The position numbers and the translations under genes are program-made. A model generated the notes under the pieces. The model saw nothing but the letters and a program-made list of their open reading frames with translations, did no database searches and had not been told where the DNA came from. From NCBI RefSeq assembly GCF_958295425.1, contig NC_081142.1:12758324-12822323 (forward strand): a DNA stretch of 64,000 bases. Reading direction: 5' to 3'. The DNA comes from Solea solea (taxonomy: Eukaryota > Chordata > Actinopteri > Pleuronectiformes > Soleidae). Shown here in pieces: positions 3,948 to 42,973 of the stretch (the first letter of the stretch is position 1; every line of letters begins with the position of its first letter).

Positions 3948-3955
3948 GTTTTATA
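3948..3955. repeat. Target-site duplication, left copy (GTTTTATA)
   Basis: The octamer GTTTTATA directly abuts the first base of the left inverted repeat and is repeated perfectly beyond the right end. Eight bases is the duplication length expected of Zisupton-type insertion. Confidence 0.9.
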
Positions 3956-4082
3956 CAACCCAGTCTCATAGAAAAACGTACCCTGGCTACGTTGGTCCAC
4001 AGTGCAAAAACGTAAAGGGGTTACAATAATGGCCCTGGAATTGTATGACTGTTACATTTTTTTCTGCCTATTCTTTTGCGTC

Positions 4083-4134
4083 CAGGTCACGTGACTTTCA
4101 AGATTCCGGCCGTGAGAACAAAAACATGGCGGAC
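4083..4134 (+). promoter_or_regulatory. Mirror copy of the promoter-like cluster in the left inverted repeat
   Basis: This is the same E-box (4086-4095), ETS and YY1-like cluster, pointing inward along the plus strand. If active it would transcribe antisense to the second gene of the element. No plus-strand reading frame of note follows it apart from a 20-codon frame. Confidence 0.4.
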
Positions 4135-4362
4135 ATTTCTCTCATTTTTAGTGAAAGAAATCAATATTTTGAGTATGATTCTGCATAAAAATGCGTTTTG
4201 ATTACATTTCTAGCGAGAAATATATATTTTAATTTCATAATATTCACTTAGTGAATGTACATAATCACTCGCTTGCTCGTTGTTGCGAAGATTATTCAGA
4301 TCTCGCCAGAAAAATGTGAACCTGATACGTTTTGGTTGTGGCCCCAGATTACACATAGGACA

Positions 4363-4408
4363 CCCTTGCGATCTGACGGATCAAACCCTTGCGATCTGAC
4401 GGATCAAA
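4363..4408 (+). repeat. Two tandem 23-bp units inside the left inverted repeat
   Basis: Two head-to-tail copies of a 23-bp unit beginning CCCTTGCGATCTGACGGATC lie about 410 bp from the end. The same pair occurs mirrored in the right repeat. Subterminal repeats of this kind often bind transposase; that role is inferred only. Confidence 0.75.
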
Positions 4409-4619
4409 CCCTCGACAACTACATGCCTTGCGTCTGAGGTTGATTTGCCGATCGACACATTATTCTGTGGCAGCGGGAGAAACTAATATTGACAAAGTGA
4501 CGAGTTACGATCAAATGTCCGCTGTGTTTAATTTTGGAATCTACCGGATCCTGTAACTTCCTGTGTGGTGCGATCTCATTGATGGGGTTTGGCGCGTCAT
4601 GGGCCTACGAAGAATAAGG

Positions 4620-4669
4620 GGACGAAGAAGAAGAAGACGACGAAGAAGAAGAAGAAGAAGAAGAAGACG

Positions 4670-4699
<30 letters not shown>
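4620..4699 (+). repeat. (GAA/GAC)n purine tract at the inner edge of the left repeat
   Basis: About 80 bp of GAA with GAC interruptions lie on the plus strand. The corresponding tract at 19329-19443 (CTT/GTC on the plus strand) has a different length and pattern of interruptions, as expected of a slippage-prone sequence. Confidence 0.9.
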
Positions 4700-4700
<1 letters not shown>

Positions 4701-5671
4701 CATTTTAGCTTGCTTGATGGAGTCTGATTGTTAACTGAATATTTTCACGACTAGCGTGTTATTTGTGGTATTACTCCTCGATCACGATATTTCAATAAAT
4801 ATTCCATTCCATTGATTAAGTTTCTTATGACATACACAGTGCTGCCACCACGTGTCTGTTCTTAGTAATAACTTATTTCTGTATGATCACGTTTTTGTCT
4901 GCTTGGAGGTTAATTAATTGTACTTATATTATTGGAAATATGCAATATCTATCTATCTATCTATCTGAGATGATCTGTCAAGCTTTTGCAAACAGTATGT
5001 GTTGTCTGGTTCCTTACAAAGTGGGAGTCTTTCAGGCTTTTGAATGTTTTTTAATAAACTTTATAACAACATACACACACACATATTACACACATATTTT
5101 CTTTCCTTAATTTGTGGTGTTCTCCTTCTTCACCCACTGTGGCGGCCAAGTTTTCCCACTGTAATAAAAAAAGATTATTTTTCATTTAGGTCTTTACATC
5201 AGCCATAAGTTAATTTCAAAACATGACAACCCTAACCCTAACAGTAAATGACCTGCCTATGGTAATATTTTGGTTAAGGTTTGTATATGCATTACCTACG
5301 GTGTAGCCGTTTATTTTAAATCATATACCTCTTCTCTGAAGGTATCCATTGTGAAAGACCTCTGCAATTTTCTGCACAATAATAGTCCCAAGTCATTGGA
5401 CTTTTGTAAATGTCATTAAACCAATGTGTGTTTGTGAAATCTAATTTATTATTATCATTATTATTATTATTATTATTACTTTAGCATCCCAATGCACGCA
5501 TTCACACACCCAGTGACACACTGGGGGGCAAGTGTGGGTTCAGTGTCTTGCCTAAGGACACCTCGACAAATTGAGCCACAGCCGCCCACAAATACAAGCC
5601 AAGGCTATTACTAAGTTTGAAGGACTAAGAATTAGGCTATTCCAATCAAAACTATGAGAAATTGTACATAC
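4700..5671. other. Spacer between left repeat and second gene; microsatellites and a retroposon scrap
   Basis: There is no gene on the plus strand. It contains an (ATCT)n run at 4948-4967, an ATT microsatellite at 5450-5480, and at 5484-5590 a fragment containing TTCAGTGTCTTGCCTAAGGA, which looks like a widely dispersed teleost retroposon. TTTATT at about 5309 and 5446 would be AATAAA on the minus strand and could serve the second gene. Confidence 0.5.
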
Positions 5672-8600
5672 CAGAGTGAACAGGGCTCCCACTCCACCAA
5701 CTGCATTTGGATCCCCTGAAAAAACATCAAAGTTTAAGGGGTTTCTAGTTGGGGTGCTTGCAATTCCAGTACATCTAAGACTTTTAATATTGTAAAGCTA
5801 ACCTTCAGCAATTTGCAGCGGATCACCCTCTTCACTGGGTAGTAAGGATCCCCTTCTAGGATCCCATGGTTACATTCTGAAAGAGCAAAATAGTACTTGA
5901 GTTTGACCTCATACATCGTCATCAATGTATCAAAAGCTATTTTGACACACAACACATGATATATATATGACTTAAGTATATCTGGTATATCTTATTACTG
6001 TATTTGAAGTCTGATTTGAAATGGTGAAATGTAAATCTAGGAAAGCTTAATAACCTGTGGGTGATGTTTTCCCCCTCAGTTTCCTCCTTGTAGACATGTC
6101 TACTGAGGCTGCAGAATTCTTCTGCTTCTTTTTTTTTGCATCTGTTGAGATTAAGGAAATGTATCTGTGAAGAGCTGTTATTGCAATGAATACTGGTCTA
6201 AATACCTCTATTCCAATAACAAATATAAAATGTAACATTACAATTGTAAATATATAGATTAGAGCTGAAACAATTAATCGATTAATCGATTATGAATCGA
6301 TTACTAAATTAAGCGACAACTATTTTGATAATCGAATAATCAGTTTGAAGCTTTTTTCATGATTAAAACAAGATTTCCGATTGTTTAAGCTTCTTAAATG
6401 TGAATATTTTCTACATTTCTTTGCTCTGGATAACAAAGACATCATTCAAAGTCAATCATTTTCGTTTGTGGACAAAGCAAGACATTTGAGAACATCATCA
6501 TTTCAAGGTTTGACGAACACCAATCAACATTTTTTTAAGATTTTCTGATATTCTGATCACCAAACGATTAATAGAGAAAACAATAAACAGATAAATCGAT
6601 TATGAAAATAATCGTTAGTTGCAGCTCTAATATATATTGTAATCTTTTGCAGGGCACCCATTGAAATACTTGGAAATTGTTTAACCATATGCTGTATGAT
6701 CACTTATTCGCTCTACCAAGGGTTATAGACTACAAGATGGACAAACAGGTGACCAATTGAAGGAAAAGACTGAAAGATGAGGGGAAAAACAATGAATGTA
6801 GATCCTCCCACACAGACTATCTCAATAATAATAATGATCTCAATATTGATGGGAGTTGTGTCTTGCATGGTCTCACTGAATGATTTACTAAGTATGAAGA
6901 TTCTGTCAATCTGATTCAATGGGTTTTACAAACCCCAATTCCAATGAAGCTGGGACAACTGTAAAACGAAAATAAAAACATTATACAACGATTTGCTAAT
7001 CATTTTCAACCTATATTAAATTTAAAACTCTACAAAGACAAGACATTTAATGTTCAAACTGATAAAATGTATTGTTTTTTAGCTAATATTAACTGATTTT
7101 GAATTTGAGGCCTGCAACATGCTCCTTAAAACCTGGGACAGGATGAAGACTGGGAATGTTTGGAACATTCCACAGGTGAACAGGTTCATTGGAAACACTT
7201 GAGTGTCATGATTGGGCATAAAAGGGGCATCCCCGGAATTCATTCACAAGCAAGTCATCCTTGGTTGTGAATAACTGAGCCTTCTGGCGATGCTTTGTGA
7301 CAGTCAGAATCACTGCTGTAAAGGATATTACCATGTGGGCTCAGGAATACCTTGGAAAACAATTGTCAGTTAACACAGATTGTCGCTATTACAAGTTCTA
7401 CAAGTGCTGTCCACACCACATTTAAAATAGTTTTTGGAAATCTTGGATGTCGTATTCCTCTGGGTAAAGAGGAAAAGGACCTCCCAAATTGTTATCAGCG
7501 CTAAGTTCAAAGGCCAGCATCTGTGATGCTATGGGGGTGTATAGTGTCCATGTCATACCCATGTCCCATGACATTCAAAATGAGTGAATCTTTGCAAACA
7601 AACCAATAAATATCTTGTTATATATTCATTGAATATAGGAAATTAATTGGAATAGGGATTTGTATGATCATCTGGGGCCTAATTTATAAATGTAAAAACA
7701 TATGAACAAACTGAGAAATAAGACACTGATTATGATGACAGAAATTCACGCTCCCCGCAGAATATGAAAGCTTGCTAAATTACACAATGTTTTGAGTTGA
7801 TTATCATTTATAACAGAAACCAGCATAGGACGTGAATTGTTATGGCCATGTATTTTGATGTGTGTGTGTGCGCATACTGAGCTTGTCCATATATACAGTA
7901 GACTGAAGTGAATTCTATACAGCTAAAAATGAGGCACCAAAGATTGAAGCTGTTCTGGTACATTTCTTCATTTAGAGTATTATTTCAGATTAAGAAGGAG
8001 AGACCGATTAGATGTTTAACATGGTTTTGTATACCATGATTAAACAACATATGAAAAAGAAACAGACTAGTAATTGAATCATGATTTATATGCTATTTGA
8101 AAATATTAGCAGAATTTACCATGTTTCTGCTGAGGTGGTTGGTGGGCTGGATGGTAGGGCTGGATGGGGGAACTGGTTGTGGGCTGGATGGAAGGACTGG
8201 TGTTGAGCTGGATGGTGGGCTGCATGGGAGGACTGGTGGTGGGCTGGATGGTGGGGATGGGAGGACTGGTGTTGAGCTGGATGGTGGGCTGCATGGGAGG
8301 ACTGGTCGTGGGCTGGATGGTGGGGATGGAAGGACTGGTGTTGAGCTGGATGGTGGGCTGCATCGGAGGACTGGTGGTGGGCTGCATCGGAGGACTGGTG
8401 GTGGGCTGCATCGGAGGACTGGTCGTGGGCTGCATCGGAGGACTGGTGGTGGGCTGCATCGGAGGACTGGTCGTGGGCTGGATGGTGGGGATGGAAGGAC
8501 TGGTGTTGAGCTGGATGGTGGGCTGCATCGGAGGACTGGTGGTGGGCTGCATCGGAGGACTGGTCGTGGGCTGGATGGTGGGGATGGAAGGACTGGTGTT

Positions 8601-10280
8601 GAGCTGGATGGTGGGCTGCATCGGAGGACTGGTGGTGGGCTGCATTGGAGGACTGGTGGTGGGCTGCTGTTTAGTAAAACCTCAATGGTACAAAAAGAGG
8701 AAAGTATTAACCTCCTGTAGTAAGAACAAATGTCCTCTTTTTTCTAGCAGTGAGTGTGATCCATAAGGAAATGTATGTCTTTTGTATTCTTCTGTCTATA
8801 AATGCTGCCCTATGGAATCTATGCTCTCTGTTGAACTGGGGTGAGGCTGATTTTGATGCAAATTGTAGGCTCTCGTGAAGTAGAGATATGTGTTTATAGT
8901 TTTTTGAAGCCTCTTGCTGTTGCCTCTTTTGCTATGTATGGCAGACAATCAGTGAGCTATGTGGCTCACTGACTAGTAAAAGAAACAAGGTCTGCAAACT
9001 AGAGCTGGAACTAACTAATTATTTTCATAATTGATTAATCTGTCGATAATTTCTGGATTAATCTATTGATCCTTTGGTCCATAAAATATCAGAAAACCTT
9101 AAAAAATGCTGAGCAGTGTTCGTCAAACCTGGAAATGATTATGTTAAATGTCTTGTGTTGTCCACAAACCAAAATGATTGACTTTTAATGATTTCTTTGT
9201 TATCAAGAGCAAAGAAATTACGAAAATATTCACATTTAAGAAGCTTAAACAATCATAAATCTTGTTTTAATCATGAAAAAAGCTTTGAACCCATTCATCG
9301 ATTATTTAAAACAGTTGTTGATTCATTTAGTAATCGATTAATTGTTTCAGCTCTACTGCAAACAATGGTTATTTTTACAATCTGTCAATTTTTTTTTTTT
9401 TTTCAATGGATCGATTAGTTGTTTGGCCCAAAAGGCATAAAAAAATGTTAAAAAATACTGACCAGTGTTTCCCAAAGTCAAAGATGATGTATATACTGTA
9501 TACATATATATTTATATGTATGACTCTGAAGGCAGAGACTCTTTTAACTTAACTTTACTTATGACATAACTTAACTTATGACTCAAACCTATTCATCACT
9601 TATCAAATTTGTTGGTGATTAATTGTATAATTGATTAATAATCCCAAATATCAATTAATTATTGCACCTCAGAAAGAAATACCTATTGGATAAAGCAAAG
9701 ACTAAATTTAATGAAGCAACAGGTGAAAAGCTATTTTTGGCCCACATTTATATTTATGTTGACTGTAGAGTAAGATTTTAAACAATCGCACACACTTACC
9801 ATTAAGTAAAACTTCATATAGAGCCTTCATCCTGTCAAGGCATTTGTCAGAATGCTCTGACAACTGCCATTTTGGATGGAGGACTTGTGCGGACCAGGTG
9901 TTCTGCTTCTTCCTTTTCTTTCCAAGAAAGACTACGGCCATGTAGCCCAATGTGTTTAACTTTTCTACCTGAAAATACAGATATACATTATATAAAACAT
10001 ACAGACATATAAGCAATTATATGGGCTGTAATCATGTAAATAATTACTATAGAATTTAAACACATACTAAGACAGATGCCTCATCAACAACATGAGAGGT
10101 GGTTTGGTTTTTTTTTTGGTTTTTCAACCACATCTCCTTTCTGGCCTCAAATTTCTGGAGCTTTTTTGCCAGTCGTTGCTTCCTGGGTTGTACTGACTGG
10201 CAATATTTGCAGGTCTTGGTGGCCACACCAATAGCTGCTCTGCAGGTCACACAGGTTGTTGTTGTTGATCCTCGTGGCAT
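5672..10280 (-). CDS. Second gene of the element: zinc-ribbon (UPF0547-like) basic protein, 5 exons read, 3' end not found
   Basis: Coding exons: 10280-10068, 9968-9800, 6141-6055, 5876-5803, 5715-5672. All borders are GT/AG and phases agree, giving 195 complete residues. Residues 1-30 start MPRGSTTTTC and hold C10, C13, C24 and C27, a spacing and sequence like the short zinc ribbon of UPF0547 (human C16orf87). A basic, charged helix follows (about 31-60), then a segment containing LGYMAVVFL, a KKKKQK basic cluster near 130, and a C-terminal VKRVIRCKLLKGIQMQLVEW that resembles the beta-strands of a chromo-like fold (inference). After exon 5 (phase 2) I could not choose between reading into the intron and an acceptor near 5626, so the stop is unassigned. 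Exons 2 and 3 are separated by 3.7 kb of repeats. The role is unknown; nuclear DNA or chromatin binding is a guess. It could instead be a captured host exon set. Confidence 0.62.
6260..6629 (+). mobile_element. hAT-type MITE, copy 1
   Basis: The ends TAGAGCTGAAACAATTAATC and ...TTAGTTGCAGCTCTA are inverted repeats rich in ATCGATTA. The flanking octamers ATATAGAT and ATATATAT match at 7 of 8 bases. The interior is related in reverse orientation to the copy at 9000-9355. It lies in the 3' part of the second gene's large intron region and has no coding capacity. Confidence 0.75.
6931..7660 (+). mobile_element. Decayed, internally deleted Tc1/mariner element
   Basis: It begins AACCCCAATTCCAATGAAGC and ends with the partly preserved complement (AATTGGAATAGGG). 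Between them, in-frame islands of a Tc1-type transposase survive, for example VKDITMWAQE (about 7320-7350) and FGNLGCR...KEEKD...NCYQR (about 7434-7500), followed by a degraded version of the SVMxWGC motif. At about 730 bp it is less than half of full length. Confidence 0.75.
7661..8129. other. Intron sequence, nothing recognised
   Basis: AT-rich DNA between the Tc1 remnant and the minisatellite, with a short TG run at 7859. I see no open frame or repeat signature. Confidence 0.5.
8130..8664 (+). repeat. G-rich minisatellite, 24-bp unit with higher-order variants
   Basis: More than fifteen units built on GGACTGGTGGTGGGCTGCAT and the spacer CGGA occur, with interspersed longer variants containing GGATGGTGGGGATGGAAGGA. 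Because the unit is a multiple of three, long frames are open by default on both strands (CIGGLVVG and MQPTTSPP repeats), so these are not genes. The plus strand has dense GG/GGG runs. The array lies in the large intron of the second gene. Confidence 0.95.
9000..9355 (-). mobile_element. hAT-type MITE, copy 2, with perfect 8-bp duplication
   Basis: The ends TAGAGCTGGAACTAACTAAT and ...AATTGTTTCAGCTCTA are flanked by identical CTGCAAAC octamers at 8992-8999 and 9356-9363. This matches the hAT superfamily. It is the same family as 6260-6629 but inverted. Confidence 0.88.
9364..9799. other. Intron with further fragments of ATCGATTA-rich repeats
   Basis: Two short partial matches to the neighbouring MITE family (near 9400-9470 and 9610-9670) are separated by simple TTAACTTA-rich DNA. 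No gene is seen. Confidence 0.45.
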
Positions 10281-10990
10281 CTTCAAACTACAATATAAAA
10301 CAATCAACATTTAATAACTAAAGTGACAAAAGAACTGCATTATTTAAGTGTTATCACATTACAAATGTTTGTAATTTGGCCTACTTCAGCATTATTAGTC
10401 TTGTCAGACATCAACACTTCATGTAGCACTGTTTCAATGGTGTTCATATCACAGCATCACATCCAATTAACTGCTATTATCCTTAGCAGCAAATACAAGG
10501 CTACAGATTCTATGCAACCCTAACCCATACTCTATAGTCTCACATAGCTCCAAGTTGATTTTTGTTTTCATCTAGGTATATCTGTATTTTGTTTGTGTAT
10601 GTGATTGTATCACTTGTCTTACTATAGCTCCTATCTCATTTTGATTCTGCTGAAGTGACATGTGAATTTGGTATCAATAAAGTTCTCAACTAATCTCATC
10701 ATTCTGTCCTCGGTTAGCACATTGCCGCCAACTGCAGCTAACGTTAAGTGCGGTGACTAATATAATGCTGGATAATAAACCCCTATGTCATTGACCACAT
10801 CACTATAAATTCATGTTGTTTAAATAATTATGACCTAGACAGCGCTAACTAACTTTATAATTCAGGTTCCGTTAGCATGTTGATATCAGTACGAGTGTTC
10901 ATTACCTACCTTAGAGGATGTACAGTATGAATGATGTTGGCGGAGAGCGCGGACACACCCCTCACTCACTTGTCAATCTGCTGACCTCTG
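10281..10990 (-). other. 5' untranslated exon and first intron of the second gene
   Basis: Seven bases of leader precede the ATG at 10280, and an acceptor (TATTGTAG) sits at 10288-10289. About 620 bp upstream a strong donor (CTAAG/GTAGGT, exon end 10910) follows a GC-richer stretch. A non-coding first exon of roughly 10911-10990 spliced to the ATG exon is the simplest reading. The intervening 10290-10909 shows nothing else recognisable. Confidence 0.5.
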
Positions 10991-11080
10991 TGCCTCTGTG
11001 ATAGGGCAACCCACGTGCCAATCAGCGACCTCTCGCAGCTACGTTGCCCACACGTCCATGTGCCCACACGTAAAAACGTG
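10991..11080 (-). promoter_or_regulatory. CCAAT/E-box promoter of the second gene
   Basis: GCCAATCAGC at 11017-11026 matches the NF-Y consensus. It overlaps the end of CACGTG at 11012-11017, about 100 bp upstream of the proposed first exon. Several ACGT-containing repeats follow to 11080. There is no TATA box. CCAAT boxes work in either orientation at this distance, which supports an independent promoter inside the transposon. Confidence 0.5.
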
Positions 11081-11174
11081 ATGCCACTTTTGTGACACTG
11101 ATTTTAAGATAAATTGGGCTAAGTATTTTCTACAAAACCCTGTCTCGATTGGGAATTTTATTCCCCACTATATA

Positions 11175-11540
11175 TTCTCTCACTTTGGTGGTCTGAGCTT
11201 TATTTTGAACTGCAATTACAACTTGGACAAACTCCCTGTAGAACTGTCCACTTTCCATAAACAGGTCCTTTTAGCATGGTCTCTCATTTATTTTTATCTC
11301 ATTTATTATTTCTTTCTCATCCCACACGTATCTAATTTGGAATAACAGAGATATTTTATATAAAAACAAGTCACTCTTTTTTGAGAATTGGGTACAGAAT
11401 CAGATTCTGCTATTTAACGGGGAGGGGTGACTTTTCTCTTACTGAGAATTTCTATCAACATATAATATTCCAGTTATGCCATGAGAATTTGCAGTTGTAT
11501 TTGACGCCATTCCATCAGGCTCAATAATGCTTTTTAGAAA
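11175..11540 (+). pseudogene. Fragment of an L1-type LINE ORF2, 3' region
   Basis: In shifting frames the plus strand reads NLDKLPVELSTFHKQVLLAW, then IWNNRDILYKNKSLFFENW. Both are characteristic of the part of fish L1 ORF2 downstream of the reverse transcriptase. At least one frameshift separates the two blocks and both ends are missing. It is a dead fragment inside the transposon. Confidence 0.75.
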
Positions 11541-12494
11541 TACTGGCAGACCTCCACCCACTTCTGTCTTCCTCTCCGCTGTGGCTGAATCACCTGTTGT
11601 CATTCCATTTCAAAGGTTGACTATCTACCATAACCTGAACCCAAAAACCACTATAATCTCTGTTTTTGGGCAAATTATAATCTGTGATTGCAAAATAATA
11701 ATTTATTTCATTGTAGGCTATATTTCCAGCAGGGTGCCTGGCTGCAGCTGAGGTTATGTCATCCAAAAATACTAGTTATCCATGTTATCCAATGAAGCAC
11801 TGCACACACTTTTTTGTCTACTAAAATCTAACTATAACATTAGATGCATTGTGTGACAGAGTAACTTGGCTGAAAAAGAGCACAGTCACAGCACTGCAGT
11901 CATTTTTTAACCAGGTAAAAAAACAAAAACTACTGAAATAGAGGTGGTCTGTCAAGAATGTCAGAAACACAATGTTTAATAGCAAATTAATAGAAAAACA
12001 GTGGAATACTTGTGAATTTGCATGCAGACAACCTAGACTGGATGTGGCCTACTGTTTCCAATTAGTAGCCTCTCTATCAAGGCCTACTTTCTTATCATAA
12101 TTATTATTATTAGTCTACCTAATTGTCACTCTACCTTTGTCTCCTTTGATGTATGTATATAAATGATTTGAATTACTGTATTACCTCATCCTGGCATAAA
12201 GTCCTCCAAAATCATAAAGATACAAACAATACTCAACCAATCCTCATTTTGATCATTATTTACACACACACACTTCAAAGTGCTCTCTGAACCTGAGCCT
12301 GTTAGGGCTCATGTCCAAAAAGTAAAAAAAATAAACTTTGTCATACATCACTGGAATTGTCTTGACCTTGAGAGTAACATATATCAATTTGAAGGCTCTT
12401 AATTATTTCTGCTTTGAGATATTGATCTTTGAACCTTAACCTCAGGGCATATTTGAAGGCTTATAATTAGGACAAAACATAGGCAATAATCACA
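11541..12494. other. Spacer inside the element, nothing recognised
   Basis: AT-rich DNA with a short (AC) run near 12263 and no supported gene. A 74-codon plus-strand frame at 11527-11751 shows no domain and overlaps the end of the L1 fragment. Confidence 0.45.
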
Positions 12495-12785
12495 CTATTT
12501 GCAAGACAAGTGACATTTCCCCTCCAACACTATCTTTTTAACATCAGGCTTGACAGCTTTTATGCTTGCCTTATGCGCCTGCAGTCCTACTTGACTTTTC
12601 ACAAATTCACAGATGTATGTTGATCCAAACAAAGTGAGCACATGCATGGCCAATGTCTTCTGTATATCATACTTTTGGGGACAAGCCACCCTAAAACTTT
12701 CTGTACCATAGAGAGCAGCCTTCATGTCACCAGCGGCCTGGATGTCAATCAGTTCACTGTGATTGACCACCTCATCCAGCGACAA
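12495..12785 (-). pseudogene. Fossil of a hAT transposase C-terminal dimerisation domain
   Basis: The 96-codon frame contains LIDIQAAGDMKAALYG and, farther on, YDIQKTLAMHVLTLFGSTYI followed by CE. FGSTYxCE is the hallmark of the hAT C-terminal domain. The frame then loses similarity (the usual ...SKYRxxLT block is absent), and no upstream catalytic part is visible. It is therefore a fragment unrelated to the KDZ transposase. Confidence 0.7.
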
Positions 12786-13559
12786 TCACCTTCCCCACAT
12801 TAGCAGTTGACAGCCTCAACTAGTGGCTTGCTATCATATAGGTAATATGAGTCTGTTAACACTGACAAAGGCTAAAAAATAACTTGTTTTTTCAAAGGCA
12901 AGGGTACAATATTCATTTTAATTATATATCCTATTATATTATAGTAAAATTAAAGAGTGTCTGGCCCTGATGGTGTCTGTCAGAAAAATTCCAGCTCTTG
13001 GACAAGTGTAGTTGATGAGCCCTGCCTTAGAATATAGGCCTAATGCTTACGACAGACTTACCTGAAAGAAACAACTCACACAATGGGATAAAACAGGAAA
13101 CTGGCTTAAATAAAAACTATTCATGAAACAAACAAAAGAGACATGACTATAGTTGAAACAACAGTTCACTTTACTGGGTGAAATTAATAAAGCAGGCTTT
13201 CTAAAACCAAGAGACTATGCCCTGTTCAAAATAAAGACTGTATATCTTCAGATAGAGAAGGTGTATGTGTGTGTGAGAGTGAGTGAGTGAGTGAAGGGGA
13301 GAGAGAGAGAGAGAGAGAATTAATATACTAACATGTGGAAAAATAAGCACAAATAGCACACTGGTGGAGAGAGTAACAATACATAGGCTATGTAAACTAC
13401 ACAACTACAGTGAAGCTATGTAGGATGCACAATACTAACATAATGGTTGTTTACAGTTTCAGAGGAATTTGCAGTAAACAGCAGTAAAATTGCCTCAGGT
13501 TTTACAAACAAGTTATTTACAGCACTGTTTTAGTTTGATACACATCCTGTCCCTAATAA
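12786..13559. other. Region 3' of the transposase gene
   Basis: No gene. It holds a (GA)n run at 13299-13318. I found no AATAAA close to the stop on the minus strand. ATTAAA (TTTAAT on plus) occurs near 12916 and could be the signal, which would give a 3' UTR of about 650 bp. Confidence 0.4.
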
Positions 13560-16500
13560 CTAGTCTTCCAGTTCCTCATCAGTAGAAGAAGTATTCTCCA
13601 AGTCTTCCTCTTCAGAGAAGTCATCTAAGGACAATGTTTGCAGTCCAAGAATACTATTGTATGTTGTGCGTGCTGTGGCCAGTTGTGCTTCAACTTCACA
13701 CAATCTTTTCTTCAGCACACAGAGTAGTCCCTCATGTCCTTTCTCCATCAATCCCTCTGTACTGCCTGAGAATGTGACATTAAAATAAAAATAAATAAGC
13801 CAAGTGGTTACCAGAGAAGCAAATTGAAAAAAACGACAAACTATTTATTGTCCTTACATTTGCCATTGGTGTCTTCAGTGAGCTGAAAGGTAAGCTCTTT
13901 AATCAGTCGAGCAACACTCCTCATGTACTCCATGTGCTGTTTGACTTCACGAACCACAATGACTTCTTCTTCTTTCAGTCTAGCCAGCAGCATTACCTTA
14001 TCAAAAACATTTTTTTTTCGCTCCATATCACCATGACCTGCAATACATTACATAAAGTGTTATCTTACATCTTAACTACTATAAAAATATTGTGACAGAA
14101 GATATTTCGCATACATATTGTTTTTTTTGTGATTTTGATGGCTGCAGCAAATTTCAAACAAGCTGGGGAAATTTGTTGAAAACTCCAAACCACCTGTTTG
14201 GATTTTCACCTAAACATATTCATTAGTAACAGGTGATAATCTCATGATCATGCTTTGTGTTATTTATCCACCAACAGCGAACCCACTCATACACAACCCT
14301 TCCCTAAACTGCTTACTGCTATGGGTGTATTCCTACAATAGAGAAATAAACCCTGACAGGATGTGATAGTACCTCAGCGCTTCGCAAAAGGGGTTCGATA
14401 ACATCCATTTATACATTACTGCATTCATTTTTTTGCATATTGCCTAGTGTCTTAAGATTTACATCAGATTCCATATGTACATCAAGATGTGTGCATCAAA
14501 CAATTGGTATTCAGTGCATTTCAGAGGAAGTACTTACATTCCCATGGCCAGGAGTAGTTGTCCACAGCCAGGAGTTCATTGGGAGGAGGGAGTTTTCCAA
14601 CTTCCCCCACAGTAGTATTATGGTCATTGATGGCAACTTCCAAGGCTTTTTTCTCAAGAGCAATCTTTTTTCTCAGTTGATGCCTTCGTTTATTCCCACC
14701 TACAATGAGAAACACAAAATGAGTGCACTCACACCATGACCACACAAAACCACCATAAAAAAATAAGGCTTCTCAATATACATGAATGTGTATATGATTA
14801 TTGTGACAGATGCTGTGTGATCATTTTTGCATCAAAAGTTTCATTATCATTTGAAAAATTGTAAAAACACTTCATATTTTTTTGAAATAGACAATATGAA
14901 GTGTTTTACAACATTTGTAGGTCAGGACATCTCTGCACTTTGCATAAATATTGGAAATATTTGGATATTGCACTCAAACTTATTATGATTTTGACAGTTT
15001 TTCAGTATGCTGCTCTGACTTGTGGTAAACCTACTTCAAAAGATGTTTGTTTTTTTAAATAAATGACTGTTTATACTATGTATAAGTCAGTAGTGAATTC
15101 ATTTTTTCACAAATTTGCATTACTAGTGGCCTTTTCTGCACTCACCAGACTGACGATACAGCTGAAATTTTCGCTGTTTGATGCCCAAATATAACCCCTC
15201 GATGGTCCTCTGCAGGTCATTTTGGGTTGTTGCTCCTTTGGACGACAACAAACAAATTAATTCATGCCCATCTCAGTTTACAATCAGCCTCTTTTCAGAT
15301 CCGCTGTACAAGAGCAGAGCCATCAAATATTTTCTCAAAGTACCTGAGGTCCACTGCTGAACATCAGACACCCACTGCTGGACTATGTCTTGCTGTATAG
15401 ACAACTCTGCGGTGAGTTTCTCCAGGTCCTTTGTTGCCTCTGTAATCCTTTGTACAGTCTGTCCGAAAGACATTTCTGTGTTAACAAATGCTGAGACACA
15501 ATTTAAAAACTGTTATTATACATATTTGCCTATTTGCCTAGTTAGTACCTTGATGTATCTTTTGGCCAGTGTCCGGTCAAGGTTTTCCGCCTTTCGCTTG
15601 TTCCAGCCACTTGCCTGGATTGTCAGCATGTCTGTGCGAACTTGACACACAATGTATATGCAGTAATTTAGGTCCACAGTGAGGACCAAAGGTCAGATAC
15701 TACATTGATCATTCTCTAATATTGTTACATAAACCTGGAGAGAATACACTTAATTAATGTGTCAGAAGTTAAATTATTATAAAGAGAATCTTGATCAGTA
15801 TAAAAGTGCTGACTAGACAATTATTTTCAATTATTAAGGGAGCACCTATGCATGGAAATCTAAAATGCAAAGGCCGAGCAGCAGTGTTCAAACCCCTTCT
15901 CAGAAGGGGGAACATGGGAAATATTTAAGTCTGGTGCTGTTTGTCTTCTCTGGAGTTGGACACCTGCAGAGATTTGACTCCACCTGACCACCAGGAAGCA
16001 CTCTATTGTAGAGAGGTGCTACACCTTCTGGTTTGGTCTATGTGGAGATGATATGTCGGCTTGTGGTCTCAATTTGGACACAACTATACATGAAGAATGC
16101 TTACCGGCTTTTGACATGTACTTGGAACAGATGGCTGCTCGGGAGAGGAAGCTGTTAACCTGTTCAACCTCCTCCCCGATTGTTGTTCCAGCTCCTTCTT
16201 GATTGCGTCCCCCCCATTTTAACTGTAATACATTTAGATGAATGTTATCATTTGGAAAACAAAAAGTAGGGGCAGTGGACAGACAATCATAATGTGTGGT
16301 ACAAATTGGTAAGAAATACATCTAATTGTCATTATTACCTCACACATCCAAGAATGCGCTTTTGCATGCATGATGGAGAGAAATGGGCGCATGTTCAGCA
16401 AGTCCTCCAACTCTGGACAGTGGTCCACAACTCTCTGCAGATATGGCCAATATTTGCAGACCACATCAGAGCAAAAAAACTGGACGGTCTGTGAAGCTAG

Positions 16501-19289
16501 CTGTTTCTGGAGATATAATGGGTATGCAAATATTTCTCCACGGAACATATTCAGTCCCTTCAGCAAGACCCCATGACGGCAGACAGCAACTTCAACACCT
16601 TCCTCGTCTAGTTTGCTTGCAGACTTGCTGGCAGACTCTCGTGCTGCTGTCCACTGACCCGCACCACATCTCCCTTTCCCTGGATTCTTAAACAGATGAG
16701 GGCAAATACAGACATTTATACAGTTACATTATACAAAATAAGCTGTAAATCTATTATGTATATATTATGTATTATGGCATTTGATGCAATAATTCCACTT
16801 ACTTAAATACTGTTACATACCAAATAATGTTTAAATTTTGAAAATAACAGGCAAACATTCATAAATGTTTTAAATTGTGGTGTTACACATGAAGAAATAT
16901 AAATTTAGCTTACATGTCCAGTTGTTCCATGGATATAATCAACAAAGGAGGACACCTCAGCATCACTGGCCAAAAAGACTCCATCAAAAAACCCATCAGG
17001 TCTTGAAAGAAATATATAGATGTGGGTTACATTTACAGTATAAAAGTCATTTTTAATTTTTGGCTCACTAGCATTTCATTGTACATGAATGTTACACACC
17101 CTGGTTGGCTTTTGAAACGATATAATTTGCGGTTCCCATCCACTGCAACTGCCAACATGGAGGGTGTGCATGCAGGGCACTGAAAATGCTGGACCTGAGA
17201 CAGCTTTTCAACCTCAAATTTGGCATAGGCCCATTCGAGGAAGGCCCTCTGCATTGTGTCCCCACATATCTTACCACTCTGAGAGCAAAAGTGAAAAAAC
17301 AAAACAAAACAAAACAGTAAGCAGTTAGTACACAACTGATGATATATCGAAGGTTGGCTTCAGACTGTGGTACTGGCGAAAAAAGGGCTCTGTCAAGAAA
17401 TGTGTGCTGAAATTTTGAGGATTGTAAGAACAAGTCCTAACAATTAATCAGTTATTTAAAAGGTGATCCAAATTTAAACGACAAATTCACTCACTCGCCC
17501 GAAGAGTTTCGTTCGACACTCGAGCATGCTGACAAAAGCTTGTCGTGACATCCCTGGGGCAGTGATTTTTAGATCCTCATACGTGGTGAACAAGTCCACC
17601 ATGTACAAGGTCTCAAAATTGACAGTGGCTGGCCAGTAACCACTTTCAACCAGATCGCTTATAGTCACTGACAAGGTTTTTCCACAGGAGCAGTTTACTG
17701 ATGGAAGGAAGAGGTTGTATCTTCCTGTAATGTCAGAGAAAAACAATTATCTCTTGTTCACAAGAAACAAAAAACACAATATGAAGAAATAATAACAAAA
17801 ATGTTACCATTCATTCCAATTAAAATAACTGGCTTTCCCTTGGAAAAGCTTGTTTGCCCAGTGGAGCAGTCACAGCAGGGAGGAACGATTGGTAACATGC
17901 AATCTAAAAAGCAGAATAAGTTTACACATTAGAGTAAATGAAACCAAAAACTCAACAGTGAGGATTGTTCCTGTTGGAGTAAACCAGGGTTTGTGTAAAA
18001 TGTAAAACAGCCTATATAACCTGAGACTTAAAAACTACCTTTTTCATGATAGGAGAATTTCCCTCCCTCATGCTGCTGAACAAAAGTGGATGGTGGCAGG
18101 TGTCTGAAGAACCCCTCCACCATGGATGCTCTGTTATGAAGCACCAGGGCCTCATGTGTGGAAAGGTCACAGGCTGTGCAGTAGAGTGATCGTGGTAAAC
18201 AGTCCCTACACATCACTACTGCAGCGTTGTGTCCACAATGATGGCAAACCCCCTCCTTGGGCTTCTCAGATGACAACATATTGTTCACCATGAAGGGCCT
18301 CAGCACTGTCCAATTTTCCAGAGAGGAAGTTTGCCTGTTCCTCCAGTGCGAGGGCAGAGGTTGTTCAGGACCACTTCCTAAGAGGTCTCGCACATCTTGA
18401 ACGAGGGAATCTGAAAATGAAGAGGGAAGAAGGCAATGGTAAATCGGGGCAATTACCACATAACAAATGAGGAAACAAGTACTAAGGGAAAAAAGGAAAA
18501 ACCTAAATTTTCGATGGTCACATTTTCTCCAGTTGTGTCTTGAGTGTGAGAACAGGAGGGTTTTTCACTTGCTGAAGAAACTGCAAAAATAGGAATATCC
18601 ATTTAGAATTGCTCAATCAATTAATGCAACTACTGATGAACAAACAAACAAAATTACTAACCAGTGGCTGAATCTCGCTTTCGTTTTTCCCCAGCTCTAC
18701 TTCTTTTTGGCAGAGGTTGACCATCTTTGTCCTCATCAAGCCAAACACACAACTTTGTGGATTTCTCTGATCCTTCTTTTGTGTGTTCATGCTGATCCAC
18801 CTAAATAATCAATAGAGCCACAGAATGAACAACCACCCACCAAGGTTTATCACCAACTACAAACATCTTATTATATAACCAATGTTATATATAATGATAT
18901 TACATTGTAAAAACTCAGATCTGTACTGACAGATAAGATCTGTACTGACTAAAAAACCCTTTCTACATTGAAAAAAAAGAAAAGAAAGTGAAACATTTTG
19001 TCAGTATATTGAATGAAACTCTAACTGGCTCTAAGTATGAACTCAGCTCAGCACTATAGCTTGCATGTGAATAAAGACATTGAACCAGGTACTGAATAGT
19101 TGTTTGTTTGGAGTGTTTTCAGTTTTGTACCTTGATACTTTTTCCTTGCTATACATCAGAGTCTATTACGGCCTTAGACATTGTAATTAGCAAGTAATTA
19201 GCATGGGACACTGAGATGTTATTTACCTTGCATTCATCCAGGAACGCATCAACCAGGAATATGGCATCGTCGGGGTCAAGTTGATTCAT
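13560..19289 (-). CDS. KDZ-superfamily (Zisupton-like) DDE transposase, 16 exons, 851 aa, intact
   Basis: Exons joined by me: 19289-19227, 18800-18662, 18580-18503, 18410-18039, 17903-17808, 17724-17495, 17278-17100, 17001-16914, 16686-16339, 16222-16105, 15640-15549, 15458-15344, 15235-15146, 14699-14538, 14037-13858, 13765-13560. All junctions are GT/AG and every phase fits, giving 2,556 nt with one terminal stop. Layout: acidic start (MNQLDPDD); basic, NLS-like PKRSRAGEKRKR near residue 60; Cys/His cluster 149-185 (C149, C152, C161, C164, C171, C174, H179, H185), as in the CxC modules of KDZ proteins; a conserved LVESGYWPAT block near 275; a CPAC pair at 360-363. Candidate catalytic residues are D373 (VDGNRK), D489 (SDVVCKY) and E548/E549 (GEEVEQ). 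CRHG at 451-454 and HAKAH near 520 are further family motifs. A charged, probably coiled-coil C-terminus ends in an acidic tail. Known: KDZ proteins carry out cut-and-paste transposition in the nucleus. The weakest splice call is the exon 12 acceptor at 15459-15460, chosen because it alone keeps the frame. Confidence 0.92.
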
Positions 19290-19468
19290 TTGCACAGCTT
19301 GGTCAAGTTATTTTTCCACGCTTCCTTTTCCTCGTTTATTTCCTCTTCTTCGTCTTCGTCTTCTTCTTTGTCTTCTTCTTCTTCTTCTTCTTCGTCTTCT
19401 TCTTCTTCGTCGTCTTCTTCTTCTTCGTCGTCTTCTTCTTCGTAGGCCCATGACGCGCCAAACCCCAT
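19286..19468 (-). CDS. Acidic upstream ORF overlapping the transposase start (ATGA)
   Basis: A 60-codon frame begins MGFGASWAYEEE, runs through a Glu/Asp tract encoded by the GAA/GAC repeat, and ends NLTKLCK. Its TGA (19288-19286) overlaps the transposase ATG (19289-19287) as ATGA, an arrangement used for termination-reinitiation elsewhere. The equivalent frame in the left repeat is closed by TAA, so only the copy next to the transposase is open. It could be a regulatory upstream ORF, an alternative N-terminus reached by splicing, or a by-product of the purine repeat. Confidence 0.3.
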   Translation of the reverse strand: MGFGASWAYEEEDDEEEEDDEEEEDEEEEEEEDKEEDEDEEEEINEEKEAWKNNLTKLCK

Positions 19469-19641
19469 CAATGAGATCGCACCACACAGGAAGTTACAGG
19501 ATCCGGTAGTTTCCAAAATTAAACACAGCGGACATTTGATCGTAACTCGTCACTTTGTCAATATTAGTTTCTCCCGCTGCCACAGAATAATGTGTCGATC
19601 GGCAAATCAACCTCAGACGCAAGGCATGTAGTTGTCGAGGG

Positions 19642-19687
19642 TTTGATCCGTCAGATCGCAAGGGTTTGATCCGTCAGATCGCAAGGG
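19642..19687 (-). repeat. Two tandem 23-bp units inside the right inverted repeat
   Basis: This is the mirror image of the pair at 4363-4408, with both units intact. It sits between the likely promoter and the acidic upstream frame. Confidence 0.75.
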
Positions 19688-19861
19688 TGTCCTATGTGTA
19701 ATCTGGGGCCACAACCAAAACGTATCAGGTTCACATTTTTCTGGCGAGATCTGAATAATCTTCGCAACAACGAGCAAGCGAGTGATTATGTACATTCACT
19801 AAGTGAATATTATGAAATTAAAATATATATTTCTCGCTAGAAATGTAATCAAAACGCATTT

Positions 19862-19924
19862 TTATGCAGAATCATACTCAAAATATTGATTTCTTTCACT
19901 AAAAATGAGAGAAATGTCCGCCAT
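19862..19924 (-). CDS. Short upstream frame starting in the YY1-like site (20 codons)
   Basis: AACATGG gives a strong Kozak context (A at -3, G at +4) and opens a 20-codon frame (MADISLIFSERNQYFEYDSA) ending in TAA. An identical frame lies in the left repeat (4126-4188, plus strand). It may be an upstream ORF in the transposase leader or chance. I see no domain. Confidence 0.2.
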   Translation of the reverse strand: MADISLIFSERNQYFEYDSA

Positions 19925-19966
19925 GTTTTTGTTCTCACGGCCGGAATCTTGAAAGTCACGTGACCT
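19915..19966 (-). promoter_or_regulatory. Probable transposase promoter in the right inverted repeat (E-box, ETS, YY1)
   Basis: On the minus strand, within about 50 bp, the sequence shows the palindrome GTCACGTGAC (19955-19964, USF/MITF-type), TTCCGG (19941-19946, ETS) and AACATGGCGG (19918-19927). The last is in the orientation of YY1 elements found at TATA-less start sites. This cluster is typical of vertebrate TATA-less promoters and lies about 630 bp upstream of the transposase ATG on the correct strand. The start site itself cannot be seen. Confidence 0.55.
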
Positions 19967-20094
19967 GGACGCAAAAGAATAGGCAGAAAAAAATGTAACA
20001 GTCATACAATTCCAGGGCCATTATTGTAACCCCTCTACGTTTTTGCACTGTGGACCAACGTAGCCAGGGTACGTTTTTCTATGAGACTGGGTTG

Positions 20095-20102
20095 GTTTTA
20101 TA
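20095..20102. repeat. Target-site duplication, right copy (GTTTTATA)
   Basis: This is a perfect second copy of the octamer at the left end. It fixes the right boundary of the element at 20094. Confidence 0.9.
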
Positions 20103-41883: not shown

Positions 41884-42054
41884 GGCAGTGGCACAAGGGT
41901 GGAGGAGGTCAAATGCTCCTCGGGGCCTAACAGCCGGTATTTTAGATTAAAAGAGGGATAATATCTTTATGCCTTCGATCAGGAAGCGTAAACCAAATGA
42001 GGGAAGATGGGAGCTCCACAATGGGATTGTCAGAGTCCTTCAGCAGAGACATTT
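41884..42054 (+). repeat. Local direct duplication, copy A
   Basis: It shares with 42818-42973 the string GGCACAAGGGTGGAGGAGGT and the following ~130 bp, including TTCGATCAGGAAGCGTAAAC. Copy A has about 15 bp (GAGCTCCACAATGGG) absent from B. Confidence 0.9.
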
Positions 42055-42817: not shown

Positions 42818-42973
42818 GGCAATGGCACAAGGGTGGAGGAGGTCAAATGCTCCTCGGGGCCTAACAGCCATTATTTTAGATTAAAAGAGGGATTATATCT
42901 CGCTGCCTTCGATCAGGAAGCGTAAACCAATTGAGGAAGGATGGGATTGTGAGTGTCCTTTGGTAGAGACATT
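42818..42973 (+). repeat. Local direct duplication, copy B
   Basis: Second copy, 934 bp downstream in the same orientation and differing by scattered substitutions plus the 15-bp gap. The intervening 42055-42817 is unique-looking and has no gene. Confidence 0.9.

Follow-up and report, generated by a model that had tools for sequence, protein, structure and literature searches.

A probably recent and structurally intact KDZ superfamily DNA transposon with two genes in the genome of Solea solea

The stretch of 64,000 nucleotides of the Solea solea genome analysed here (assembly GCF_958295425.1, contig NC_081142.1, positions 12,758,324 to 12,822,323; in the following the window) contains a mobile element of 16 kb, which we read, with a probability of about 0.8, as a recently inserted DNA transposon from the KDZ superfamily that is structurally intact and has two genes. 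Its anatomy is complete and four near-identical copies with different flanks are present in the sole assembly. The element is a member of the KDZ superfamily, whose branch we leave unassigned, and next to the transposase gene it contains a second, chromodomain-like gene, which was absent from the first-pass annotation of this DNA. The latter had described an intact, recent KDZ element and had advised to look for further copies, and this part of its interpretation stands, whereas a placement in the strict Zisupton branch and a family-wide 8-bp duplication were not supported.

The terminal inverted repeats of the window copy are 742 nt long and 99% complementary. Their inner ~85 bp are a (GAA)n tract and the solid part of the repeat is therefore only about 655 bp long; over these outer 655 bp both repeats differ by two substitutions and no gaps. 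The element ends are CA..TG, and the same octamer abuts the element on both sides. With the flanking duplication, the repeats and an open transposase in place, the earlier description of a structurally complete 16.1-kb element with a perfect 8-bp duplication and inverted repeats of ~745 bp with few differences was essentially correct. Moreover, a 23-bp unit is directly repeated 2.2 times within each inverted repeat (4362-4412 and 19638-19688), a possible candidate for the transposase binding site.

Gene 1 encodes the transposase. Its 851 codons contain no internal stop and all 15 introns are of the GT-AG type. The 16-exon model with agreeing phases proposed before was rebuilt from the sequence, and the resulting protein is identical in every residue to the public Solea solea model P0001 (LOC131465891). 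A draft with 17 exons and 876 residues was rejected: the additional exon (17406-17332) has no counterpart in 11 other aligned proteins, of which P0010 also lacks the exons that follow it, and it can be removed in phase. The protein matches the KDZ domain PF18758 with 103.6 bits (cut-off 26.6) over profile positions 3-217 of 217, in agreement with the assignment as KDZ transposase made from the letters. Furthermore, it contains the KDZ-associated zinc-chelating cluster CxC3 (PF18804; cut-off 26.6 bits), while a profile search for CxC7 gave no match at E up to 1. The structure prediction suggests an RNase-H-like core in which D373, D489 and E548/E549 are conserved and follow each other in the order expected for a D-D-E catalytic triad. 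In Foldseek the best match of the predicted transposase was the transposase of the bacterial insertion sequence ISCth4 (6xg8; E 2.8e-4), which has 401 residues and 7-11% sequence identity to the sole protein. A further protein, P0004, with 718 residues encoded on a contig of 3,936 bp, covers the transposase from inside exon 4 to the last exon, for which the corresponding genomic stretch in the window spans ~4.7 kb; its source 'lgn' was taken as assembled public reads, and P0004 probably represents the spliced transcript of a related element.

The outermost 400 bp of the element end were used to search the sole genome, resulting in 16 matches, eight of which are both ends of four full-length copies, i.e., the window copy on contig C28 (16,139 bp) and the copies on C29 (16,013 bp), C2 (15,973 bp) and C30 (16,049 bp). 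Three full-length copies were thus added to the one in the window, in line with the first-pass annotation's advice to look for them. The four copies are 98.5-99.6% identical and all their flanks differ. The non-coding difference of C28 amounts to 0.41% to C2, 0.38% to C29 and 1.52% to C30; for the first two values, an assumed neutral rate of ~5e-9 per site per year would put the separation of C28 from C2 and C29 at roughly 0.4 million years, supporting the proposed recent insertion. An undamaged transposase is found only in C28 among the four: in C2 exon 1 is missing its initial 27 nt and exon 12 is shortened by 27 nt in frame, in C29 exon 13 has lost 4 nt, and in C30 exon 9 has lost 1 nt and exon 15 is shortened by 24 nt in frame. 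This comparison was made on the 17-exon draft, and a frame shift of C30 in draft exon 7 was discounted as this exon was dropped. C2, C29 and C30 would consequently depend on C28 or on copies absent from this assembly for their movement. The damage in three of four copies might suggest an ordinary dead relic or a chance assembly of repeats; this is extremely improbable, however, as both genes of the window copy are open, its duplication is perfect, and it shares 99.6% identity with two sister copies that have other flanks.

The exact duplications at the four full-length sites are 8, 7, 6 and 5 bp long, with 8 bp in C28 only, so that an 8-bp duplication as a trait of this transposon family, as previously suggested, was not supported. 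In a 7-bp register the flanks agree at 7/7 positions in C30, 6/7 in C2, 5/7 in C29 and 3/7 in C28, which agrees at 8/8 in an 8-bp register. When 200,000 pairs of sites were drawn at random from the window and a slack of one base was allowed on each side, matches of at least 8, 7 and 5 bp occurred at frequencies of 0.00017, 0.00044 and 0.0055, respectively, and the 5-bp match of C29 is therefore weak when taken alone. We read these lengths as a staggered cut of ~7 bp with one base of play; alternatively, mutation after insertion could account for the duplications of C2 and C29. The variable length cautions against sorting KDZ branches by the duplication of a single insertion.

This bears on whether the element is a strict Zisupton element making 8-bp duplications, as the perfect octamer of the window copy, the KDZ domain and the fish host might indicate. 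Both the sole element and Zisupton of Xiphophorus maculatus have a many-exon KDZ transposase, inverted repeats, a fish host and flanking duplications. The platyfish element, which Bohne and colleagues are said to have described in 2012, reportedly has a length of 11 kb, 24 exons, 99-bp repeats and a single gene. The sole element differs from it with its 16 kb, 742-bp repeats, 851 residues, CxC3, two genes and duplications of 5-8 bp. Zisupton sensu stricto is not shown here because the protein lacks CxC7 and not all copies have an 8-bp duplication. The placement in the fish Zisupton branch also disagrees with protein size, as the passages of PMC12062965 on the platyfish protein locate CxC7 at residues 1333-1393 and hence imply at least 1,393 residues, far more than in sole. 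Moreover, CA..TG ends and a duplication of ~7 bp recall Kyakuja of Laccaria, also of the KDZ superfamily but described as lacking inverted repeats (PMC12730594), and only one of the four full-length copies has the 8 bp. Taken together, a strict Zisupton element is doubtful, and we keep to a KDZ element of unassigned branch.

Nor does the element coincide with Kyakuja: it shares the CA..TG ends but not the lack of inverted repeats, since its own are 742 bp long, and it carries a chromodomain-like gene, whereas the Kyakuja families shown carry a TET/JBP gene (PMC12730594). The first-pass annotation had considered complete autonomous copies with such long ends as seldom described; large elements of the superfamily are less rare than this suggests, as Ectocarpus has KDZ elements reaching 30.3 kb and an actively transposing one of 31.7 kb was reported in Chlamydomonas (PMC12477816). 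Many of these giant families also contain additional genes, but the passages considered name no chromodomain partner of KDZ, and chromodomains appear there in Gypsy elements. Our literature search for KDZ or Zisupton elements with a chromodomain retrieved no earlier report.

The second gene lies downstream of the transposase on the same strand and appears to encode a chromatin-reader-like protein carried by the element. The protein consists of a zinc-ribbon-like N terminus (CxxC..CxxC), a minisatellite-encoded linker and a chromodomain-like C terminus. Its frame is uninterrupted in C28, C29 and C30, and C2 has one stop inside the minisatellite repeat. The minisatellite exon 3 measures 561, 375, 303 and 591 nt in the four copies, and the differences as well as the unit spacings are multiples of three. 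At such low divergence an open frame alone is weak evidence, and conservation across species is stronger. For the first 130 residues 15 matching proteins were found, 14 of them from fish and eight of these from Oryzias latipes, and for the ends of protein 2 the matches reach 51-87%. When the C-terminal part of one relative served as query, three proteins were found among five candidates, all from fish and one being the query itself. Furthermore, the gene predictions P0011 (Onychostoma) and P0034 (Cirrhinus) continue from transposase exons into gene 2 exons.

Gene 2 might nevertheless be foreign to the transposon, i.e., a captured host gene or the relic of a nested element. Its introns contain a 176-bp inverted pair of 87% identity (6323-6498 and 9135-9310), presumably a short fish repeat present twice. 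In the sole genome 18 exon matches of gene 2 were found at 13 places, four being the full-length copies; the place lists for gene 2, transposase and ends are lower bounds. Around three of the 13 (C2:15.99, C36:23.01 and C36:23.25 Mb), the lists contain neither a transposase nor an end match in a range of 200 kb. For two (C36:21.92 and C36:22.88 Mb) the listed ones are ~50 and ~90 kb away, and for two (C38:15.38 and C39:23.49 Mb) a diverged transposase is found at a distance of 14-15 kb on the opposite strand. On the other hand, order and strand are the same in sole and in the two cyprinid predictions, a relic on C38 retains gene 2 ~9 kb downstream of the transposase on the same strand even though one exon is inverted, and relics of element ends lie 6-11 kb from the place at C26:0.78 Mb. 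In Notolabrus and Myripristis transposase and gene 2 were each found on contigs of equal length, a pairing that means the same chromosome at best. A foreign origin thus seems unlikely; the link of gene 2 to the transposase is clear for the family of the window element and uncertain for older families.

The chromodomain-like character of the C terminus was derived from an icefish relative, P0122. In a Foldseek search of its C terminus against the PDB the 50 listed of 144 matches are all chromodomain or chromobox proteins, with probabilities up to 1.00, and residues 251-280 of the model reach a predicted local distance difference test (pLDDT) score of 77-84, as the only ones to do so. Sequence matches of the C terminus are weak but point in this direction too, 10 of 12 in a first set and three of seven, named chromodomain or chromobox, in a second one. 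Invariant cysteine and histidine residues surround this end and may bind zinc. Protein 2 and its pieces matched no Pfam or NCBIfam family above the cut-off.

Several observations weigh against the reading of a recent, intact two-gene transposon. The P0122 model is poor overall (mean pLDDT 44.7, predicted template modelling score 0.20) and shows three strands and no C-terminal helix. Chromodomains usually have such a helix. The best E value of the fold matches is 0.099 among the 50 listed of 144, none being below 0.001, and in the second sequence search it is 0.014, for a match (2m2l) named only as uncharacterised protein. No Pfam chromodomain was matched by two C-terminal pieces or by six family members, and one of the three cage aromatics, at what we take to be the cage positions, is a cysteine in protein 2. 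Neither transposition nor a transcript of the window copy was observed, and the helper role of gene 2 is putative. The synonymous (dS) and nonsynonymous (dN) differences of the C28 transposase are 0.0018 and 0.0021 to C2, 0.0054 and 0.0035 to C29 and 0.0108 and 0.0036 to C30, and this four-copy comparison gives no clear constraint on the transposase. The length of the duplication differs among the copies. Finally, the joined flanks, used as query for the empty site that the first-pass annotation had proposed to look for, had hits to both halves of the occupied site and nowhere else in the single assembly searched, and no unoccupied site was found there.

For this transposon we propose the following mechanism. 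The cysteine clusters of the transposase would bind the two ~655-bp ends, the DDE core would then excise the element, and pasting into a staggered cut of ~7 bp (5-8 bp seen) would create the flanking duplications. Protein 2 would act as an element-encoded helper, the chromodomain-like end of which most likely would tether the complex to chromatin or counteract silencing.

The relatives of the element suggest that it was transferred horizontally. In a midpoint-rooted tree of 38 proteins selected from 120 listed, with P0034 as a long row, the sole sequences fall into a clade of 15 rows (support 100/100) together with those of Leuciscus, Pimephales, Onychostoma, Cirrhinus, Merluccius and Collichthys. 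The flatfish Hippoglossus is placed outside of this clade. Alternatively, the closeness to the cyprinids might reflect vertical descent under strong constraint, as transposases can be conserved and the comparison with other fishes rests on proteins only. Public proteins read out of frame expose third codon bases. At four-fold sites 18 of 21 determined bases (13/16 and 5/5) agree between sole and Cirrhinus P0010 and 13 of 14 agree with Onychostoma P0022, with four undetermined; at two-fold sites 22/27 and 11/14 agree, respectively. The sole-carp split dates back ~230 million years and four-fold sites should be saturated. The notothenioid rows outside the clade agree at 5/7 (P0017), 6/21 and 1/2 (P0019) and 7/14 (P0024) four-fold sites. 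A P0010 match inside the minisatellite (35 of 49 determined four-fold sites the same) was excluded from the counts, and P0018, P0134 and P0135 had no determinable third base. The agreement leans high because the misframed stretches were picked up by their similarity. Still, the third-base agreement with both cyprinids and a fully supported clade uniting soles, cyprinids, hake and Collichthys without Hippoglossus make vertical descent very unlikely. Transfer in fishes would be ordinary, as 93.7% of 975 vertebrate transfers were located in ray-finned fishes in a survey whose main text does not mention Zisupton or KDZ (PMC7070016). Horizontal transfer of Zisupton itself was already published for nematodes (PMC9297572).

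A fish KDZ lineage whose mobile unit comprises a transposase and a dedicated chromatin-reader gene, and which moved horizontally between distant fish orders, can be proposed tentatively, at slightly less than even odds. If this holds true, the chromatin-reader partner would be an animal counterpart of the TET/JBP genes that KDZ elements of fungi carry. The window copy, which may still be mobile, represents an intact, testable vertebrate KDZ element beside three damaged sister copies and suggests a KDZ group with its own chromatin-directed helper. If the helper is real, one could test if a partner is required by KDZ transposases and if the superfamily carries epigenetic helper genes as a rule.

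Table 1. Features of the element in the window (positions of the window; putative and candidate features are named as such).
Feature	Position	Strand	Remarks
Whole transposon	3956..20094		16,139 bp, copy on contig C28
Left target-site duplication GTTTTATA	3948..3955		abuts element
Right target-site duplication GTTTTATA	20095..20102		identical to left octamer
Left terminal inverted repeat, 742 nt	3956..4697	+	starts CAACCCAGTCTCAT
Right terminal inverted repeat	19353..20094	-	last letters ATGAGACTGGGTTG
(GAA)n tract	4609-4699		inner end of left repeat
(TTC)n tract	19340-19441		inner end of right repeat
Gene 1, KDZ transposase	13560..19289	-	16 exons, 851 residues
Gene 1, exons 1-6	19289-19227, 18800-18662, 18580-18503, 18410-18039, 17903-17808, 17724-17495	-	
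Gene 1, exons 7-11	17278-17100, 17001-16914, 16686-16339, 16222-16105, 15640-15549	-	
Gene 1, exons 12-16	15458-15344, 15235-15146, 14699-14538, 14037-13858, 13765-13560	-	
Exons 5-6 with CxC3 cysteine cluster	17495..17903	-	PF18804, 50.1 bits
D373 codon, putative first catalytic aspartate	17138..17140	-	on predicted strand
D489 codon, putative second catalytic aspartate	16465..16467	-	directly after predicted strand
E548-E549 codons, candidate catalytic glutamate	16169..16174	-	at predicted helix start
Gene 2, chromodomain-like protein	5107..10280	-	six exons, 370 residues; downstream of transposase, same strand
Gene 2, exons	10280-10068, 9968-9800, 8680-8120, 5876-5803, 5715-5672, 5158-5107	-	phases agree
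Gene 2, exon 3, in-frame minisatellite	8120..8680	-	Pro/Thr/Ser-rich linker; weak acceptor (..ttgag)

Besides the full-length copies, three insertions comprise nothing but an outermost stretch of 89-124 bp from a single element end (L036, C35:11010383; L037, C30:5037195; L039, C2:18615255). They are flanked by the short duplications CCATAT, TGTTATC and CAAAC, and two of the three (L036 and L037) contain an additional CAACC in direct orientation ahead of the duplication; we know of no mechanism accounting for such outer-end insertions. At six of seven 10-kb loci of ~65% related KDZ families no long inverted repeat pair plausible as element ends was found, the inverted pairs there being mostly simple-sequence palindromes. 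Two end copies (C36:21391125 and C25:31259241) are 90% identical to the window end and have a common outer flank of 40 bases; they are probably one old insertion that was spread by segmental duplication between C36 and C25, which also contain many other KDZ fragments.

An Rfam search of the window gave nothing at the gathering threshold. Between gene 1 and gene 2 an open stretch of 96 residues on the minus strand (12498-12785) has no Pfam match; it appears to resemble the end of a hAT-type transposase. Beyond the element, the window contains a 129-bp direct repeat of 92% identity (41884-42012 and 42818-42946).

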